DNA of 64,000 nucleotides from Candidatus Gastranaerophilales bacterium (lineage in GTDB: Bacteria; Cyanobacteriota; Vampirovibrionia; Gastranaerophilales; Gastranaerophilaceae), in the NCBI GenBank assembly GCA_944324315.1, contig CALUVW010000006.1, forward strand, positions 1 to 64,000. Direction: 5' to 3'. Position 1 is the stretch's first letter. Each line of letters opens with the position of its first letter. Below the pieces are notes generated by a model that searched no databases, was not told the DNA's origin, and saw nothing but the letters and a program-made list of their open reading frames with translations. A program made the translations under genes and the position numbers. Positions 4,081-63,925 of the stretch are shown piece by piece.

Positions 4081-4107
4081 AAAACTCCCGTCTGAGAAGG
4101 ACGGGAG
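4081..4107 (-). terminator. Terminator of the prepilin-YadA-S74 gene
   Basis: Read leftward, CTCCCGTC and GACGGGAG form a stem followed by TTTT. It lies about 170 nt beyond the stop codon of the leftward gene. Confidence 0.7.
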
Positions 4108-4277: not shown

Positions 4278-6665
4278 TTACTTCATTTTTGCCTCCAGTT
4301 TTTGTATACGTTTTTCTAACTCATTAATTCGTTGTTCTTGAGCTTTGTATTTTGCATCAAGTTCTTTTATTGCGTTTATCATGGCGTAGAACATATCCTC
4401 TAAACGTATTCTCAAAAAACCGTCTTTTGCCTTGCTTACTGCATCAGGGAAGATTTTTTGTAAATCCTGCGCGATTACACCGACATGCGGGGTTTTCTTT
4501 TCATCTTTTTTGAAGGTGTAATTGAATACTTTCAATTGACGAATTTTGTCTAAGCCAGAGGTGTTTTCCTTGCCTACATATTTTAAGCGACGGTCGGACC
4601 ATAGAGGGTGTTTATCTAGATCGCTATCACCACCCATTAAGTATACATCATCATTATCCAGCGATTGTTCTAAAAATCCACTTGTATAGCTATTGGCACC
4701 ATTATGTTTCATTTTTGCAAGTATAGGACCTTTGACTATTAAAGCACCGTTTATTACAACACCGCTAGCATTATTATGCTCTGAACCACCATAAGAAAAT
4801 TCATCACTAATATTATGCACCTCTAAGACTGAACCAGCATGATTAAAGTTTGATGTGCCGCCGAGGTAGATATGTTCCTCATTAATGGTATTATTACCAA
4901 TACAAATTGAACTACCAGACCCTGTACAAGAGATTCCATGCCCTATGGCTATATCATCACTCTCTGCATAAGTACCACTCCCTATAGCTATACTGCTGCT
5001 ACTCGTTGCTCCAGAATAATCCCCTATTGCTATACCATACGAAACTCCCTTATTATTATATGTTTTATTCTCGTTAGTACCAGCTCTGTAACCTACTGCA
5101 ACACCACTATAAGAACCTGATTTACCGGCACTGGCATTAGATCCGATAGCTGTTCCGTTATCAGATCCATAAGCACCATAACCCACTGCAACTGAATTAC
5201 CACCATATATAATAGTATCAGCACCAACTGCTACACTGTAATTCGCGTTATATGAATTAGAACCAATTGCATAATAACCAATTGCCACAGTCTTAGTCGC
5301 ACTTGAATTTGTATTTAAACTATTAGTTCCAATTGCAACATTAGCTCCGTTACCAGATGTACCACTATAACGGGCACCGGCATTTTTACCAATAGCAACA
5401 TCGTTTCCAATACTATATGAATTATAACCTATAGATATACCATATTCTTTATCACTTACATTATAATTAGTAGTGCTTTCTGTTTCTGCACCATCACCTA
5501 TTGCAATTCCTCCGTCACTTGTTGCACTTGTTTCACGACCAATTGCAATAGAGCCGATACTTGTTGCGACAGCCTCATTCCCTATAGCAATTGATGAAGT
5601 TCCACTGGCTGTTGTGCGAACAGCACCAGCAATCGATGGATCAGAACCTCCGATTGCAATTGCATTGTTTGATGTTACAAGTGTGCCTGATCCTATAGAT
5701 ATCGAATATGAACCAGTCGCTTTAGTTTGGTTGCTACCTCCCGAGTCACCGCCATATTCATTAAGAAAACCACCTAAAACCAGCGAGTTGTAACCTGAGG
5801 CAAGCGTATTATGACCTATCGCAATTGCATTATAATTTGTAGCCGCAGAATTAATCCCTAAAGCAAGACTGCGAGCACCGGTTGCACTAGCAGAATTTCC
5901 TATAGCAATTGAACCATAGTAAGAACCTGTTGTTGTTGCACCTGTAGAAACAGTATTTTGACCTATCGCAATTGTATCATTGACAGATATATTTGCGCCA
6001 TCATTAGCCTGATAACCTATTGCTATATTGTTGCTTCCGCTTGCATAACGCAGAGCATGCACACCTATAGCCGTATTGTTGTTGCCGGAAGGAGAATTAT
6101 CCTCTGTCCCGGACAGAGCATCAACACCAACAATAGTATTATTATTCCCTGTACTTAAATGAAAAGCATTAGCACCTATAGCTGTATTGTTACTGCCTTT
6201 ATTCTGCTTCATTGCCTCGGCTCCCAAAGCTGTGTTTGCATCACCATCTTCGTTTTCCAACAAAGTGTTAAAGCCGATTGCGGTATTAACATCACCTTTA
6301 AAAGAACCGTTGCTCAAAAAAGTATTTCCGCCGGAAACAAATAAACGACCTGTTATATCTTCACCTTTTTTAAACAAAATATGAGCAGCTTCGTCATCAT
6401 GACCGGTAATCGCACTAATAATAAATCTCACATAATTACCGTCAGTTTCTTCTTTCTTTTTCTGACCAATCATTGCAGTTTGTGTATCGCCTAAGCCGAA
6501 ATATGTATCAGCGCGGTCATCTGTCCATTTCCAGGGCGAAGAATTATCACGCATGGAATTGTCCCGCGTTGTCATTACAGGTGCCATAGCAGCCAGAATG
6601 ATACTCATGATTAATAACACAACCATCATTTCCGCTAAAGTAAAGGCCTTTTTAAATTCCAGCAT
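4278..6665 (-). CDS. Chimeric surface protein: type IV prepilin leader + YadA-like head repeats + S74 chaperone
   Basis: The 795-residue protein joins three known modules. Residues 1-34 form a class III prepilin signal: leader MLEFKKA, cleavage before Phe8, Glu at +5 (FTLAE) and a long hydrophobic helix. Residues from about 130 to 610 are dozens of short repeats ending in AIG, VAIG or ALG, as in the left-handed beta-roll head of YadA/Hia trimeric adhesins. The C-terminus (690-795) is a peptidase S74/endosialidase-type intramolecular chaperone. It begins SDRRLKYVG, with the Ser690-Lys695 pair of the self-cleavage site, continues PHVGVIAQDL and ends in a coiled coil. Inference: the protein is moved by pilus/type II-like machinery and folds as a trimer with the S74 domain cut off. 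It has a strong Shine-Dalgarno (AGAGGAG). There is no YadA outer-membrane anchor. Confidence 0.85.
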   Translation of the reverse strand: MLEFKKAFTLAEMMVVLLIMSIILAAMAPVMTTRDNSMRDNSSPWKWTDDRADTYFGLGDTQTAMIGQKKKEETDGNYVRFIISAITGHDDEAAHILFKKGEDITGRLFVSGGNTFLSNGSFKGDVNTAIGFNTLLENEDGDANTALGAEAMKQNKGSNNTAIGANAFHLSTGNNNTIVGVDALSGTEDNSPSGNNNTAIGVHALRYASGSNNIAIGYQANDGANISVNDTIAIGQNTVSTGATTTGSYYGSIAIGNSASATGARSLALGINSAATNYNAIAIGHNTLASGYNSLVLGGFLNEYGGDSGGSNQTKATGSYSISIGSGTLVTSNNAIAIGGSDPSIAGAVRTTASGTSSIAIGNEAVATSIGSIAIGRETSATSDGGIAIGDGAETESTTNYNVSDKEYGISIGYNSYSIGNDVAIGKNAGARYSGTSGNGANVAIGTNSLNTNSSATKTVAIGYYAIGSNSYNANYSVAVGADTIIYGGNSVAVGYGAYGSDNGTAIGSNASAGKSGSYSGVAVGYRAGTNENKTYNNKGVSYGIAIGDYSGATSSSSIAIGSGTYAESDDIAIGHGISCTGSGSSICIGNNTINEEHIYLGGTSNFNHAGSVLEVHNISDEFSYGGSEHNNASGVVINGALIVKGPILAKMKHNGANSYTSGFLEQSLDNDDVYLMGGDSDLDKHPLWSDRRLKYVGKENTSGLDKIRQLKVFNYTFKKDEKKTPHVGVIAQDLQKIFPDAVSKAKDGFLRIRLEDMFYAMINAIKELDAKYKAQEQRINELEKRIQKLEAKMK

Positions 6666-6798
6666 TAATATCTCCTCTAAAACTTAATGTAATTATTTAT
6701 ATTATATCGTGTTTTACTTTATTAGTCAATAGTAAATATAAAGTTATACATTATGTTAAGAGTGAGATATTTATAAAATAATTTTTGAAGGAGTAAAA

Positions 6799-7570: not shown

Positions 7571-9301
7571 TTAAATATTTTGTTTGTAAACCTTATCGGA
7601 ATTTTTTTCTATGTCAGGCGTATCTATTTCAAAAACATGAACTCTTGCAGGACCTAAATCCACACAGAGCATATTGTCTTGCGCCTGCAAAATACTTTCC
7701 TTACCGTAAGAAGGCAGCAAGTTATACAAATCCTGATCTGCTTTTAATGTCGGAACTTTAATTTTACATGCCACTGAGCGGTTTACATTTTTATTCGCAA
7801 CAACCAGCAGAGTTTTACCGTTCAGGTGACGGGCATAAGCAATTATTTGATCGTTTTTGTCATCTATTTTATCTAATTGAATAAAACTGCCTTTTGAAAT
7901 AATATCCAAATATTTATCTCTCATTTCAAAAGCACTCGTCATAAACTTGCCGATTTCAGGCTGAGTTCCGCCCGGTTTTCTTGAAAGGTTAAATATGTCG
8001 AGTCTGCCTCTGTGGACAGTCATTTCATGATTATCTGTCTGAGTAACCGGATTATACTTTTCTTCATAAGGATATTTATAATCATCTCCGCTTTGATAAC
8101 CGTCTAATATATAAGGATTTAACATCGGAAGAGTAGCTTGAAGCCCCATTGTTAAATTGCAATAATCAGCACCGCCATGATACATCGGAGAAATATCATC
8201 GTGCGTTGCAAATGAACCAATCATAGACTTGCCTTTTGGAATTTTGTGAGACATATCAAGCATTGATTTTACATAGTCCATAAATATTGTGGCATTCGGC
8301 CATTCATGGAAAATATGGTATTGTCCGTAAATCATATCAAATCCAGCCCTTAACGAATCTTCCGGTCTGTCATAAGCCATATTTGCCTGAGGAGAAGCAT
8401 CCTCATAAGTATATGTCTCTGCAAGCCATGCAAATTCAGGATCACGCATATGTGAATAAGGTATAATTATATCCCAAAATTCAACTGGTTTCGCTCTTGC
8501 GACATCTGATCTTATACCATCAATTCCTAAATCAATACACATATCAATAAATTGTTTATGAAGTTCCAGCAATTTCGGATTTAAAGTTCTTTTACCTTCA
8601 TCTTCCCATGGTTGAAACATTCTGATATCATTCCAACCCTGAGGAGTTTTTGCAAGTCCGTCCCCTTCCATAGCCATCCATTCCGGATGTTCAAGGAACA
8701 TATCATAAGAAGCACAACTAGGTAAATCAAGCATGACCTTTATATTACGTTTATGGCATTCATCAATAAAGGCTTTAAACTGCTCTTTATCACTTCGAGG
8801 ATCATTTTTATCAATCAAATTAGGATCTATTGCAAGAAGATCTTTCGGGGAATATACAGACCCTGCAGTACCCATAGCTTTCTTTTTCCCGGGAGGATTT
8901 ATCGGAAGTACATGCAGAGTATTAAACCCTTGTGCTTTTACTTCATCAAGTCTTTCTATAGCATTTAAAAATGTTCCGCACTGTTCATTGCCGTCAATAT
9001 ACTCGTTACCGTTTAAATCTTTCGCATTAAATGTTCTGGGAACAATAGCCAAAATCTTTGCTTCATTATTCTGAACCATTGTTCTTAAGTTATTGTGATA
9101 ATTAACCGGCGCAGTTGTCTCAACTTTTTTGACAGCAGGAATATTCATCATAGCCAGATTGTTTAAATATGAATTTATCAATCCTGATTTTGTCTCTTTT
9201 TCTGTTTGGTTTGCATTGATGACAGCCGTTGTATTATTTTGTACACCGGTTTGTTTCATACTGTTTAGTTTTATTGTAAGCAAATTAGTTTGACTTATCA
9301 T
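7571..9301 (-). CDS. GH13-family alpha-glucan enzyme with atypical region I
   Basis: The 576-residue protein carries an (alpha/beta)8 barrel of the alpha-amylase family from about residue 82. Region II is DGIRSDVA with nucleophile Asp266, the general acid is Glu295 (WLAETY), and region IV is FATHDD with Asp368. Region I reads LDLPSCAS, so the His of the usual D-x-x-x-N-H is missing. Together with the following EHPEW this recalls GlgE-type maltosyltransferases more than amylases. About 80 N-terminal residues are low-complexity and Asn-rich, with no signal peptide. It is the last gene of a three-gene leftward operon and overlaps the gene before it by 17 bases. Whether it acts on glycogen or extracellular glucan is not clear. 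Confidence 0.7.
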   Translation of the reverse strand: MISQTNLLTIKLNSMKQTGVQNNTTAVINANQTEKETKSGLINSYLNNLAMMNIPAVKKVETTAPVNYHNNLRTMVQNNEAKILAIVPRTFNAKDLNGNEYIDGNEQCGTFLNAIERLDEVKAQGFNTLHVLPINPPGKKKAMGTAGSVYSPKDLLAIDPNLIDKNDPRSDKEQFKAFIDECHKRNIKVMLDLPSCASYDMFLEHPEWMAMEGDGLAKTPQGWNDIRMFQPWEDEGKRTLNPKLLELHKQFIDMCIDLGIDGIRSDVARAKPVEFWDIIIPYSHMRDPEFAWLAETYTYEDASPQANMAYDRPEDSLRAGFDMIYGQYHIFHEWPNATIFMDYVKSMLDMSHKIPKGKSMIGSFATHDDISPMYHGGADYCNLTMGLQATLPMLNPYILDGYQSGDDYKYPYEEKYNPVTQTDNHEMTVHRGRLDIFNLSRKPGGTQPEIGKFMTSAFEMRDKYLDIISKGSFIQLDKIDDKNDQIIAYARHLNGKTLLVVANKNVNRSVACKIKVPTLKADQDLYNLLPSYGKESILQAQDNMLCVDLGPARVHVFEIDTPDIEKNSDKVYKQNI

Positions 9302-11900
9302 TTTTATTACCTTTTATTTGCGGGTTAGTCATTTTACGGAAAACAAATTGTGCTAAAACTGTAACTCCAAGAAGCCCTAGAGCGAATTTACCAAACATAT
9401 TTTTCCATTTATGTGTATTATAAACCTGCTGAAATCCTTTATAGAAAAATTCATCGGTTGATATACCTGTTATAAGGAATTTAAGATTTGAGCCAAACTC
9501 TCTAGGGTCTCTTACCAGATGACGCAATTTGGCAAAATACTTATCACTTCCAAGGATTTCCATAGACATATCCCTGTAATTAACCAATTCTTTATATATA
9601 GGACTTGCCTCTGCCAATTTTTGTGTATCATGGTGCATTGGAGATTCAAACATTGCACGCATAGCATTTTGATAGAAATATTTATCTCCGCCAATATCAG
9701 CAACATCCTCAGTTGCTCCAAGATATTTATTTATTACTTTTCCGTTTTTAACTTCAATAGAAGAATTATCAGCCGCCGGATGCTGGTTTCTTTGCATATA
9801 GAATTTTGTAGCATGGTCAGATGAATGACCTTCAAGAGTTATGATTTTACATAATTCAACAAGTTCTTCTTTAATTTCTTTTGATAAACTGCCGCGTACA
9901 TCTATTGAATCTATGCTTGCAGGCGTATCCGCAATTCTTCTGTAAAAATCCAGAGTGTTAATTAATCTGTAGAAAGAACTCTTTACACCCAAAAGTCTGT
10001 CAGATACAAATGCTTTTTGTAAATTTCTTACACTTATATCGTCACCACTTCCTTTCCCGGAAAGCAGGTTTGCGGTTCTTGTAAGACCGTTAACATGAAG
10101 TAACGCAGCTGTATCTTCAAATACTATATCAACCTTCTTGTCATACAGAGGTTTCAACAGAGGTTTCGGTCCACGTTTATCCGGAAATTCTTTTTGGAAT
10201 AATTTTTCAGACATAATATCCGGTTTGATTTCTTTATTTATTACAGCGACTTTTTCAATAAGTCCTTTCATTACTTTGTTGTAAAGTTTGTCATCCGATG
10301 CAATTTTTTCAATCCGGTCTCTCAATAAGTCTGCAAAAAGACTCTTATTAAATCTGACTTTTTCAAATTGTTTCGGGGTTATACCAAAAAGTTTTAAAAT
10401 ATCTTTTGAGGTATTATTCCAATAGTTTGCAATTACAGTTTCAGGAGCAGAACCAATCTTCAAAACAGCGGCTTCATCAAGAGCATACATTTTTGCTCTG
10501 AAATCATCCATAAATTCAGCAATTAATCTTACCTTTTCTACAACTTTAGGCGTGATTTTATTTGTTTGCACAACGGGTTTTATTTTTTTAACAGGATGTT
10601 CTCCGTTTTTATTATTATTGAGAAGGCTGTTGATATATGCAAAATCTTCTTTTTTATCAGGCATTGCAGATTTGTTATATTCTTCAACCATATCTTCAAG
10701 CATTAATTCTATGCTTTTAGTAACATTTCTAAAATCTGAAGCTGTAATATTTTTATTCATGAAACTGTTGGATTTCAAATTATTAATAATAACTTCAGCA
10801 TTTGGCAGCATAGACGATATAAATTCTTTTTGAACTCCGCCTTCTTCAAACTTTTGAATTAAATTTGCATATATAGTTTTTGCAGCTTTTTCATCAATAT
10901 TGTAATATGAGGATGCCTCCAAATCTATAAATGCTTTTAAATCTTTTATAAGACGTTTTGATACAGCAGGTTCAAGCGTCTGTGAAAATGACTCCAGAAT
11001 AAGTTTTTCAAATTCTTTATTAAACGGTTTATCACTGTACAAGTTTAATATCTTCTCAACGCGTGTCTGAATTTTGTTATCCTGATATTTTTCGGCATAT
11101 TGATCAATATTGTTTAAAATTTTATCAGCCTTTTTATTTTTCATGTCATTCAAGAATTTTGAAATATGAGGCTCCAACTGATTACATATTAAACCGCTCA
11201 TAACAGGTGTTGCAAAGCCTGCAGTTAACATCCACAACGTATTATTTTGAATGAACTTTTTCTTCATTTCATCTTGAATTACAGTTCTTCTGTTAGGTAT
11301 ATTTTTATCTATACCCATGTAATCACCTATTTTTTGAATTTTTTGCTCACTGCATAAATCCCATGGTAAAAATTGCGGATCTTGAGCAAAAGGTTTCTTT
11401 CTGCCGGCACTGTCAATGTATTCTTTTTGAACATTAAAACCATGCACCAGATATGCCGGAAGCTGAATTGCAATTTTAGGCCAAATTGCCATAGAAGCTA
11501 AAAATGATCCTAAGCCCACAAACTCCATTACTTTAGTCATTGGTGTTTGTTTTCTTGTAAATAAATAGCTTGCAATTGCAAGACCGCCAACAGTCAAACC
11601 CAGATTATTTAATTTTCCGAGTTCATGATCGTTTGCTTCTCCCTTTAAGACATGCTTCAAAGCCTTAGCATCATATATTGTATCTTTAACAGCATACAAG
11701 GGTATATTAAATAAATTATAATTTACAAGATGTCCCTGTCCGTCTTGCGGTTTAATCAAATCTTTATTTTTAAGCACATGATGAATATCAAAGTGCGGCA
11801 TGGGCTTTTTGTGCGGCTCTTTACGATTATTGTTTGAATTTACAGTTCCGCCTGCATTTTGTCTGTTTATTATGAAGTTTTGGATTAAATTTGTATTCAT
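9285..11900 (-). CDS. Large membrane protein of unknown function (871 residues)
   Basis: No family is recognised. The N-terminus is polar and Asn/Lys-rich. Hydrophobic segments follow at about 99-115, 128-150 and 221-240. A long helical, charged middle part (about 250-840) comes next, and one membrane helix near the C-terminus (about 845-862). The region 60-235 parallels residues 55-250 of the protein encoded just upstream. Both have hydrophobic helices, then a F-x-x-W-D-L motif (FLPWDL at 177-182), then a G-M/I-x-x-N-pattern segment and a Trp-containing helix, so the two look like distant paralogues. It starts 2 nt after that gene's stop and overlaps the GH13 gene, so the three are co-expressed. 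Confidence 0.75.
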   Translation of the reverse strand: MNTNLIQNFIINRQNAGGTVNSNNNRKEPHKKPMPHFDIHHVLKNKDLIKPQDGQGHLVNYNLFNIPLYAVKDTIYDAKALKHVLKGEANDHELGKLNNLGLTVGGLAIASYLFTRKQTPMTKVMEFVGLGSFLASMAIWPKIAIQLPAYLVHGFNVQKEYIDSAGRKKPFAQDPQFLPWDLCSEQKIQKIGDYMGIDKNIPNRRTVIQDEMKKKFIQNNTLWMLTAGFATPVMSGLICNQLEPHISKFLNDMKNKKADKILNNIDQYAEKYQDNKIQTRVEKILNLYSDKPFNKEFEKLILESFSQTLEPAVSKRLIKDLKAFIDLEASSYYNIDEKAAKTIYANLIQKFEEGGVQKEFISSMLPNAEVIINNLKSNSFMNKNITASDFRNVTKSIELMLEDMVEEYNKSAMPDKKEDFAYINSLLNNNKNGEHPVKKIKPVVQTNKITPKVVEKVRLIAEFMDDFRAKMYALDEAAVLKIGSAPETVIANYWNNTSKDILKLFGITPKQFEKVRFNKSLFADLLRDRIEKIASDDKLYNKVMKGLIEKVAVINKEIKPDIMSEKLFQKEFPDKRGPKPLLKPLYDKKVDIVFEDTAALLHVNGLTRTANLLSGKGSGDDISVRNLQKAFVSDRLLGVKSSFYRLINTLDFYRRIADTPASIDSIDVRGSLSKEIKEELVELCKIITLEGHSSDHATKFYMQRNQHPAADNSSIEVKNGKVINKYLGATEDVADIGGDKYFYQNAMRAMFESPMHHDTQKLAEASPIYKELVNYRDMSMEILGSDKYFAKLRHLVRDPREFGSNLKFLITGISTDEFFYKGFQQVYNTHKWKNMFGKFALGLLGVTVLAQFVFRKMTNPQIKGNKNDKSN

Positions 11901-11902
11901 AT

Positions 11903-12940
11903 TTAATTTACCACATACCTGTCATTTTTAGCTATTACATCTGCAGAATCGACCTTTGAAGGTTTTTTGGAACTTTTTAACGAAAACGCAGTTCCGACAA
12001 TTGATGATAACAGAGCAGTTCCCAAAAGTATTTTTCCGGCTTGTTTGCTGACTCCATGCCCTTCTCCTTTGAAAAATATTTTCGCACTGTCTTCAAAACT
12101 TTCTTTCAATATTCTCATGGATTTTGAAAATTCTTCTGTTTTCCAGAATTTAAAGGTCATCGCCTTAAAATATTTCTCCCATGGCTGCTGGAATGCAAAT
12201 GCAACGCCCACTGCCGCCCATAAATATGAGGATATATTTTTTGCCAGATTAGATTTTACTATAATTTCTTTTATTCTATCTTTTACTTCTTGGTCTGAAT
12301 CATTAAGGTTGCGCCCCATGCCGAGTTTTCTTGCAATTCGATCATAGCGGAAATTTCTTTTTTGCCCTTTTGCTTCGTCACCATATAACAAATCCCAGCG
12401 TGGAAATTCTACACTTTCAAACACTTTATGATACTCAATACTTGTAATATCAGTGTCATTAACATCATCAGGAAGTTCATATATAACCTTGGCATAAGGT
12501 CTTTCAATATCAATGCCGGTAAATAAATTTATCGGAACACTTACAAATGATTTTGAAATATTTTTTGCTATTCCGTAAAATAATACCCCTAGTGCAAGTT
12601 TGTTGCCTAAAGCAGGACCTGCTTTTGTCTGGGCAAATGGTTTGTAATACTTATTAGCAGCATTGAATACGGCCATTAAACTTAAACTACCTGTTATATA
12701 AGGAACTGTCCCCATTGTTAAAAATTCATAAAAATTAGCATTTTTACTTCCTTTTAAACCTTTTGCCGGATATAAAGTAAATGCATTGGTAAATTTATCA
12801 AGACCTATACGTGTACGTGTGGCAAGATTATTATTTAAAAGCGTATCATGATCATAATCTAAAGCTTTTTTATTATCTTCCCCGGCAGAATTAGCAGAAA
12901 AATTAACTTTGTTATTCAAATTATTTACAGGTAAAATCAT
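11903..12940 (-). CDS. Membrane protein of unknown function with N-terminal VNFSA motif
   Basis: This 345-residue protein is first in the operon with the 871-residue protein and the GH13 enzyme. Residues 12-16 read VNFSA, a motif seen near the N-terminus of several other proteins here. Hydrophobic segments lie at about 73-95, 110-138, 232-250 and 305-325. The FPRWDL motif at 179-184 and the following NLNDSDQEVKDRIKE part match the arrangement in the downstream protein. The ATG at 12940 has GGAG 5 nt upstream; the longer GTG frame runs through that ribosome-binding site. No signal peptide is evident. Function unknown. Confidence 0.7.
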   Translation of the reverse strand: MILPVNNLNNKVNFSANSAGEDNKKALDYDHDTLLNNNLATRTRIGLDKFTNAFTLYPAKGLKGSKNANFYEFLTMGTVPYITGSLSLMAVFNAANKYYKPFAQTKAGPALGNKLALGVLFYGIAKNISKSFVSVPINLFTGIDIERPYAKVIYELPDDVNDTDITSIEYHKVFESVEFPRWDLLYGDEAKGQKRNFRYDRIARKLGMGRNLNDSDQEVKDRIKEIIVKSNLAKNISSYLWAAVGVAFAFQQPWEKYFKAMTFKFWKTEEFSKSMRILKESFEDSAKIFFKGEGHGVSKQAGKILLGTALLSSIVGTAFSLKSSKKPSKVDSADVIAKNDRYVVN

Positions 12941-13039
12941 TGTTTCTCCACACACATCAATGCCAGTTATATAAGAACCGTAAATATTATTTTTTGTCAG
13001 TATAATTCCAGCAATTTTACATTTTTTAACAATACTAAA

Positions 13040-63013: not shown

Positions 63014-63874
63014 TTATCGCCATAAATAATCCTCTTTTATCTGCCATCCGTCTTGCTGAATTAATGCACCGCAGTAATAGCGTTTAGACGTTCTGCTGTT
63101 ACAGCCCCATGCTGAATTATTTTTTAAAGTTTCCCTGTCACGTCCCGCGCCATACAGAGCAATTTTTTTATTAGCGGAAGAAACATCTATTATAAACAGA
63201 TCCCGGCCATATACATTAGTGCCGCCCGCTCCGTTTAAATCTACGGTAACAAGTAAATGTCCTGATGTGACCGGTGTTTGATGTCCATTGTCATCAGTAA
63301 CGATATTATTGTCAACAATTATACTATATAATGTGCCGTCAGAAGTAATAAACATTCTGCCATAATTTATATTAAGCTTAAAAGAAGATTTATCCAAAGA
63401 TGTTGTCATATAGGTCTGACATTTATTAACATTATCTAACCCGCAATCCTTGGATATCTGCATATATTTCATTATGTAATTCTTAATAAATATTTCACGT
63501 TCTGCTTTTACCGAATCAGAATCAGTTGATAAATCCGTGCCCGATTGTAAAAATGTCCAGCCTGACATATCACCATAATCAGCCTGAGCACGTGTTATAG
63601 CCTGTTCAAAACTTGATACTGCCTTTTTTAATCTGTTGACCGTTACATGCTTTTGGTGCTTTGTAATAAGTGTCGGTAAAGTAATTGCTGCAACTACACC
63701 AATTATTCCCAGGGTAATTAAAACTTCGGCTAAAGTGAACGCAGCTTTCTTTTTAAGTAAAGTGTGAAATGTGAAGATTAAAGAGAGTTTAGAAGAATTA
63801 GTTCGTTTCGGGGAATTACTCTTCCTCGCCCTGATTAGGATAAAAGTTAGGGGTAGGTATTGAAAAAAAATCAT
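63014..63874 (-). CDS. Type IV pilin/pseudopilin-like protein with long leader
   Basis: The protein (286 residues from the ATG at 63874) has the class III prepilin site KKKAA-FTLAEV (Phe46, Glu at +5) and a hydrophobic helix ITLGIIGVVAAITLPTLI. A 220-residue C-terminal domain follows with four Cys in its last part and around the CGLDNVNKC loop. The 45-residue leader is far longer than in classical prepilins and has low-complexity Arg/Ser/Lys content. The ATG at 63874 follows TAAGGTAAGG; a GTG at 63925 would extend it by 17 residues without a Shine-Dalgarno. It probably forms part of a pilus or type II-like secretion pseudopilus. Confidence 0.8.
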   Translation of the reverse strand: MIFFQYLPLTFILIRARKSNSPKRTNSSKLSLIFTFHTLLKKKAAFTLAEVLITLGIIGVVAAITLPTLITKHQKHVTVNRLKKAVSSFEQAITRAQADYGDMSGWTFLQSGTDLSTDSDSVKAEREIFIKNYIMKYMQISKDCGLDNVNKCQTYMTTSLDKSSFKLNINYGRMFITSDGTLYSIIVDNNIVTDDNGHQTPVTSGHLLVTVDLNGAGGTNVYGRDLFIIDVSSANKKIALYGAGRDRETLKNNSAWGCNSRTSKRYYCGALIQQDGWQIKEDYLWR

Positions 63875-63925
63875 CCTTACCTTACCTAATAAGTGAAGGA
63901 ATGTATTTTTACGCGGGCACTGCAC

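Follow-up and report, generated by a model that had tools for sequence, protein, structure and literature searches.

Within the window, that is, the whole 64,000-nucleotide stretch of Candidatus Gastranaerophilales DNA that was analysed, a gene on the minus strand at positions 4278-6665 encodes a protein of 795 residues. Its ATG start codon has a good ribosome-binding site, with the Shine-Dalgarno sequence AGAGGAGA read at 6671-6678, and about 36 nt before the ATG lies a candidate sigma-70-like promoter, TTGACT-17-TATAAT (6701-6729), identified by its 11/12 match to consensus only. This is the best promoter-like site of a region in which 14 such sites are found and 12.2 are expected from shuffled sequence. 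A weak candidate for an intrinsic terminator, a hairpin at 4085-4107, is positioned downstream of the gene (2 such hairpins are found and 1.9 expected). These features, and all of those within the gene that are described below, are on the minus strand.

An earlier note on this DNA had claimed that a single frame of this length joins a class III prepilin site (A-FTLAE and a hydrophobic helix), the head of a trimeric adhesin, and a peptidase S74 domain with a final coiled coil. The Pfam domain order, N_methyl, YadA_head, Peptidase_S74, confirms the three-part frame, and the prepilin site is present as MLEFKKA^FTLAE. The predicted leader peptide, MLEFKKA (residues 1-7; 6645-6665), would be cleaved between A7 and F8, and is followed by a hydrophobic N-terminal helix (residues 8-30; 6576-6644) in which E12 corresponds to Glu5 of a mature pilin. 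Both N_methyl (residues 5-27, 24.2 bits, cut-off 21.2) and the NCBIfam prepilin domain TIGR02532 (22.8 bits, cut-off 16.3) score above their cut-offs. Residues 31-110 (6336-6575) comprise a putatively flexible linker (about 31-59) and a conserved neck with the motifs SPWxW and QTAMIGQ.

The predicted trimeric head, composed of YadA-type beta-roll repeats, occupies residues 128-600 (4866-6284) and matches Pfam YadA_head with 40.7 bits over 5 stretches (cut-off 25). It also matches parts of the NCBIfam models for the trimeric autotransporters Ata, EmaA, BimA, and YadA, at scores far under the full-length cut-offs. Residues 111-600 contain 29 [AVSTG][ILV]G motifs where 7.6 are expected; in 2000 composition shuffles the count never exceeded 16. 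The spacing met most frequently between motifs in the head is 14 residues, which is the period of the YadA coil. A beta-rich stalk (residues 601-689; 4599-4865), hypervariable across family members, precedes the putative Peptidase_S74 intramolecular chaperone auto-processing domain (residues 690-754; 4404-4598). Here Pfam Peptidase_S74 is matched at residues 690-743 with 58.3 bits (cut-off 22), and the SDRRLK motif, with Ser690, Asp691, and Lys695, lies within this match at exactly residues 690-695, as the earlier note had it. The protein ends in a predicted coiled coil (residues 755-794; 4284-4403), which belongs to the chaperone.

Predicted structure

An AlphaFold model of the monomer, built from an alignment of 49 sequences, has a mean pLDDT of 71. 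It has a helix at residues 11-30, a beta roll that extends to about residue 600, and strands of moderate to low confidence at 598-677 in the stalk. The S74 region is weak, and the model closes with a helix at 755-794. A poor monomer model would be expected of an obligate trimer. The terminal helix, a single one of 40 residues, bears out the coiled coil claimed previously; its pLDDT is about 66-87 in the full model and up to 94 in another model, made for the last 228 residues only, which as a whole was set aside because its confidence is too low for use. The linker is unordered, with pLDDT below 50 at residues 28-48 and 50-59. No globular alpha-beta pilin domain is seen after the helix in the monomer model, in which residues 28-59 are of low confidence.

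A Foldseek search with the modelled head retrieved the BpaC head (7o23, E 5e-8) and YadA (1p9h, E 0.003), which supports the assignment of a YadA-type trimeric head. The head also matches YadA-like viral proteins; such heads occur in phages and chloroviruses. When solved structures were searched, the head again matched BpaC and YadA, while the C-terminus matched the chaperone domain of MYRF (7dc3) and, more weakly, phage fibres.

Distribution and conservation of the family

The earlier note had treated the protein as a single case. Its architecture is real, but it belongs to a whole family, with four S74 genes in its own genome. S74 genes are present in 72 of the 146 genomes sampled from the taxonomic family, with up to 12 copies per genome, and the same three-part order, which the note had proposed to look for, recurs in dozens of them. 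The closest named relatives are from metagenome-assembled genomes of Candidatus Gastranaerophilales; others are of gut origin.

A search of the family with the S74 profile alone yielded 60 genes that were read, 5 of them cut at the 5' side and 55 complete. All 55 complete genes have a prepilin leader (54 by pattern and one, L102, by eye), and because only the S74 profile was used, this test of the leader is unbiased. Another set, of 79 genes, was retrieved with patterns of which the leader forms part and is therefore biased for it; the leader was recognized by pattern in 50 of its 53 complete frames. The motif SDxx[LMF]K is kept in 60/60 family S74 genes, so the predicted cleavage residues of the S74 domain claimed at the outset are intact in every one of these relatives. 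Across 49 aligned proteins F8, L10, and E12 of the prepilin part and S690, D691, and K695 of the S74 part are invariant, and W45 and G67 in the linker and neck are conserved; by Pfam, S74 is recognized in 49/49 of these relatives, N_methyl in 46/49, and YadA_head in 41/49.

Among the genomes sampled from the class, S74 is almost confined to this family. One genome of a second family of the same order carries a trio of leader-bearing S74 genes (L209). Where S74 genes were inspected in other families of the class, and in one photosynthetic cyanobacterium, no prepilin leader was found; those outside the order look phage-like or otherwise different, and one of them (L205) is cut at the 5' side, so that its lack of a leader is unproven. 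Within the phylum, and judged from this small sample, the fusion of prepilin and S74 thus looks specific to the order; other phyla may carry it, going by the main text of a 2021 survey of modular pilins (PMC8179133).

Several further observations concern the genomic setting of the family. Contigs C4 (at L036:8011) and C14 (at L037:8162) of the gene's own genome each break off within an S74-prepilin gene, at one and the same 77-base sequence, which falls in a conserved part of the gene, and the N-terminal parts of these two copies are missing from the assembly. From the shared 77 bases, it was probably the repeats that broke the assembly. Adjacent trios of S74-prepilin genes occur in one genus (L071, L074, L075, L076), in another (L070, L077, L087, L101), and in the second family (L209:1764-5121); every gene of a trio has its own leader and S74 domain. 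Such trios could specify homotrimers of three kinds or, by analogy, one heterotrimer like the GspI-J-K pseudopilus tip. The gene family is also present in records labelled Fusobacterium sp. CAG:439 or Heliobacteriaceae (L116, L132, L134, L171, L187, L189), labels that are probably wrong.

Fixed ends and a variable head

Comparison of paralogues within genomes gives leader pN/pS values of 0 in the gene's own genome (G000), 0.04 in G211 and G215, and 0.08 in G429. For the S74 domain, the corresponding values are 0.03 (G000), 0.14 (G211), 0.05 (G215), and 0.19 (G429). In the one pair formed by the window gene and its paralogue on contig C1, the leaders are identical, with a pN of 0, and pS is 0.87, so that synonymous sites are near saturation. 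By these ratios, both the leader and the S74 domain are under strong purifying selection. The DNA of the head is only about 50% identical between paralogues of the gene's own genome, to which this comparison is limited.

Recombination between copies also leaves its mark. In G215, the first 1122 bases of L220 and L222 show 98.8% identity but the final 402 show 86.3%; in this final part L220 has more in common with L221 (93.5%). The paralogues L220, L221, and L222 of G215, like L212, L214, and L215 of G211, are mosaic, with 5' and 3' nearest relatives that differ. Since the 5' and 3' parts have different closest relatives, recombination between copies is indicated. Recent gene conversion alone was rejected as the cause of the constant ends, because many synonymous sites distinguish the paralogues in both leader and S74 domain. 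On these comparisons, the main cause of the constant ends is selection, with some recombination besides. A constant-variable-constant pattern of this kind fits an adhesin with fixed export and folding parts.

Export machinery in the genome

A single secretin is encoded in the genome. Its gene, on contig C5, stands in line with those for a PilB/GspE ATPase and a PilC/GspF protein, and a prepilin gene follows farther along the row; the best profile score of the secretin is to GspD. The genome also has one prepilin peptidase, encoded on contig C20 (L113:3223-4218), and two PilT-type ATPases, the latter named from their T2SSE match, size, and sequence. The single secretin and single prepilin peptidase support the link to pilus-type export that had been suggested for the protein. 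Likewise, the proposed lack of a C-terminal beta-barrel anchor holds: S74 and a coiled coil make up the C-terminus, and YadA_anchor (PF03895) is absent from the whole genome. No major-pilin operon adjoins the gene, a finding that counts against the model given below. Type IV pilus genes have been reported in a termite Gastranaerophilus (PMC5877343).

Other features of this genome may be recorded here. The PilB/GspE ATPase (L112:9216-11225) has an N-terminal MshE-type c-di-GMP-binding motif (49.2 bits, cut-off 38), from which pilus assembly may be c-di-GMP-controlled. About 107 prepilin-like genes are detected at E <= 0.001 (125 at E <= 1) in the 1.88 Mb genome, and relatives of similar genome size have from 4 to 112. 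Most of those that were read (for example, L005-L034) begin A/G^FTLAEVLITLGIIGVVAA, in open reading frames of 200-400 aa; one within the window, at 63014-63925 on the minus strand, also matches DUF6613. Closer to the gene, adjacent proteins of 871 and 350 aa (9285-11900 and 11903-12955, both on the minus strand) have no Pfam match, and this pair is adjoined by an amylase-like protein at 7571-9301.

A model for folding and display

Taken together, the domains and their order, their conservation, the selection acting on them, and the export machine lead us to infer a processed, trimeric protein with a particular location. On balance, we consider it somewhat probable that the gene specifies a modular minor pilin carrying a trimeric adhesin, which is trimmed by its own S74 domain and shown at the tip of a type IV pilus or pseudopilus. 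The pre-protein would enter the inner membrane by its N-terminal helix, leaving the remainder in the periplasm, where the S74 domain and the coiled coil would gather three chains from the C-terminal end, allowing the head to adopt a trimeric beta-roll fold. The folded trimer would then trigger a cut before Ser690, releasing a chaperone of about 106 residues and thereby serving as a folding check, and prepilin peptidase would take off MLEFKKA at A7/F8. The three N-terminal helices, tied to the C3-symmetric fibre by the flexible linker at 31-59, could fill three successive subunit positions, and this set of three at the tip would start or cap the filament. Finally, the fibre would pass the secretin and bind gut ligands, with the duplicated genes and their mosaic heads providing different specificities.

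Precedents exist for several of these steps. In phage endosialidase and in MYRF, a Ser/Lys dyad of the S74 domain does the cutting (PMC3742443), and in a Bdellovibrio fibre a Ser-to-Ala change stops self-cleavage (PMC10769870). The tip model for TcpB, as outlined in PMC9565799, has three helically placed pilin parts and a flexible linker to the trimer, and the unordered stretch at 31-59 provides what a tip of this type requires. That S74 self-cleavage acts in Gastranaerophilales as an assembly checkpoint, admitting only the folded, trimmed trimer to the pilus, is a more tentative idea, to which we give a little less than an even chance.

The largest doubt is whether the protein becomes a subunit of the pilus or is merely pushed out by it. 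With no globular pilin domain seen after the helix, incorporation is less certain than for CofB, TcpB, or PilB of S. sanguinis, and the processed trimer might instead be expelled by a pseudopilus to form a free or membrane-tethered surface fibre. A secretin that scores best against GspD would suit such a piston, as would the presence of more than 100 other prepilin-like proteins, more than one pilus plausibly needs. However, Glu5 and the hydrophobic helix are invariant, as they are in assembled subunits, and the two PilT-type ATPases point to a retractile pilus; we therefore regard simple expulsion as unlikely, if the most serious of the alternatives. The number of copies per genome, up to 12, could also mean that the three-part proteins are not at the tip but project as numerous side branches from the shaft of a heteropolymeric pilus, or form its major pilin. 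This arrangement is quite improbable: a C3 trimer of 490-residue heads for every three subunits would be hard to pack laterally without long linkers, and large modules suit the tip, as is argued in the main text of PMC8179133.

Processing itself may be questioned. Ala at -1 is usually a poorer site for prepilin peptidase than Gly, though it is common among the other prepilins of this genome. If the leader were left in place, the protein would remain in the inner membrane with type II topology and its fibre would cross the periplasm, and a tether of this sort has a parallel among S74 proteins in MYRF (PMC3742443). Yet the short class III leader is under strong purifying selection and the genes for the machine are present, making an unprocessed leader slightly less probable still. 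Last, it is very improbable that the gene is that of a phage tail fibre, now domesticated or in decay, which owes its N-terminus to chance, or that it was fused in assembly: identity to the S74 domains in L-shaped tail fibres of the phage T5 type is 38% and YadA heads are present in phages and chloroviruses, but the leader is in 55/55 complete S74 genes of the family, selection is strongly purifying, no phage genes surround the gene, and a viral collection yields only one distant S74 match. An origin as a phage or prophage gene was rejected on those surroundings and on the finding that the whole protein has no viral homologue in a scan that used leader and neck patterns, and so tests the whole protein rather than S74 alone. 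As for a fusion made in assembly, which the earlier note had named as a possible refutation, it is excluded by the recurrence of the architecture in dozens of independent genomes.

Comparison with known systems

The favoured reading, a self-trimmed trimeric adhesin at the tip of a pilus, has relatives, and the claim of a new kind of surface appendage is not supported: homotrimeric minor pilins at the tip, CofB and TcpB, are known, and the 2021 survey already lists the pairing of pilin with S74. According to its main text, this architecture (IPR012902-IPR030392), with the same N-terminal class III signal and C-terminal S74, is among the 15 commonest; S74 is interpreted there as 'peptidase activity' and receives no study of its own (PMC8179133). 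The pairing being on record there, the novelty of the present family is lowered. No mention was found in that main text of Melainabacteria, YadA, trimerization by S74, copy number, head diversity, or selection. A search of the literature on prepilins with Peptidase S74 and on pilins of Melainabacteria/Vampirovibrionia likewise yielded no description, which, as it covered open-licence papers, is weak evidence.

CofB and TcpB of type IVb pili, as they are described in PMC9565799 and PMC8179133, resemble the protein, as the model pictures it, in being homotrimers at the pilus tip with a beta-rich trimeric extension and a flexible linker. They differ in having a globular pilin domain, which is not seen in the monomer model of the present protein, a lectin-like distal domain, no YadA head, and, in these descriptions, no S74 domain. 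The MAT fibres of Bdellovibrio bacteriovorus are likewise an expanded family of bacterial, chromosomal trimeric fibres, many of which end in S74 with SDxxxK, and their self-cleavage has been demonstrated with a Ser-to-Ala control; their N-terminus, however, is a signal peptide followed by a beta domain of 130 residues, not a prepilin leader (PMC10769870). Head repeats and fold are shared with the type Vc trimeric autotransporters BpaC and YadA, whereas the C-terminal barrel anchor is absent from the Gastranaerophilales protein and the export route is probably another. The same chaperone domain is found in phage S74 tail fibres and tail spikes and in the ICA domain of human MYRF, and a YadA-like head in chlorovirus proteins, but none of these has a prepilin leader and their context is the virion or the nucleus. 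Finally, the shufflon PilV of I-complex plasmids also combines a constant pilin N-terminus with a variable adhesive part. PilV is one gene switched by a recombinase; here the copies are dispersed, and both ends are constant while the middle varies (PMC9045228).

Implications

We could not find a description of a YadA head placed between pilin and S74, of S74 as the likely trimer chaperone in a pilin, of the expansion throughout the family, of the gene trios, or of constant ends around a variable middle. Most likely, the S74 part of pilin-S74 proteins is a disposable chaperone, which would correct their reading as pilus-borne peptidases. If the model is true, a large trimeric fibre completes its folding in the periplasm before a type IV pilus takes it over, with a folding device known from phages serving as quality control. 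YadA-type trimeric heads would then have a further export route besides type V secretion and virions. There would also be a lineage-wide repertoire of recombining heads, and the gene trios of some genera may yield heterotrimers. These uncultured gut relatives of the Cyanobacteriota would gain a defined repertoire of adhesins.
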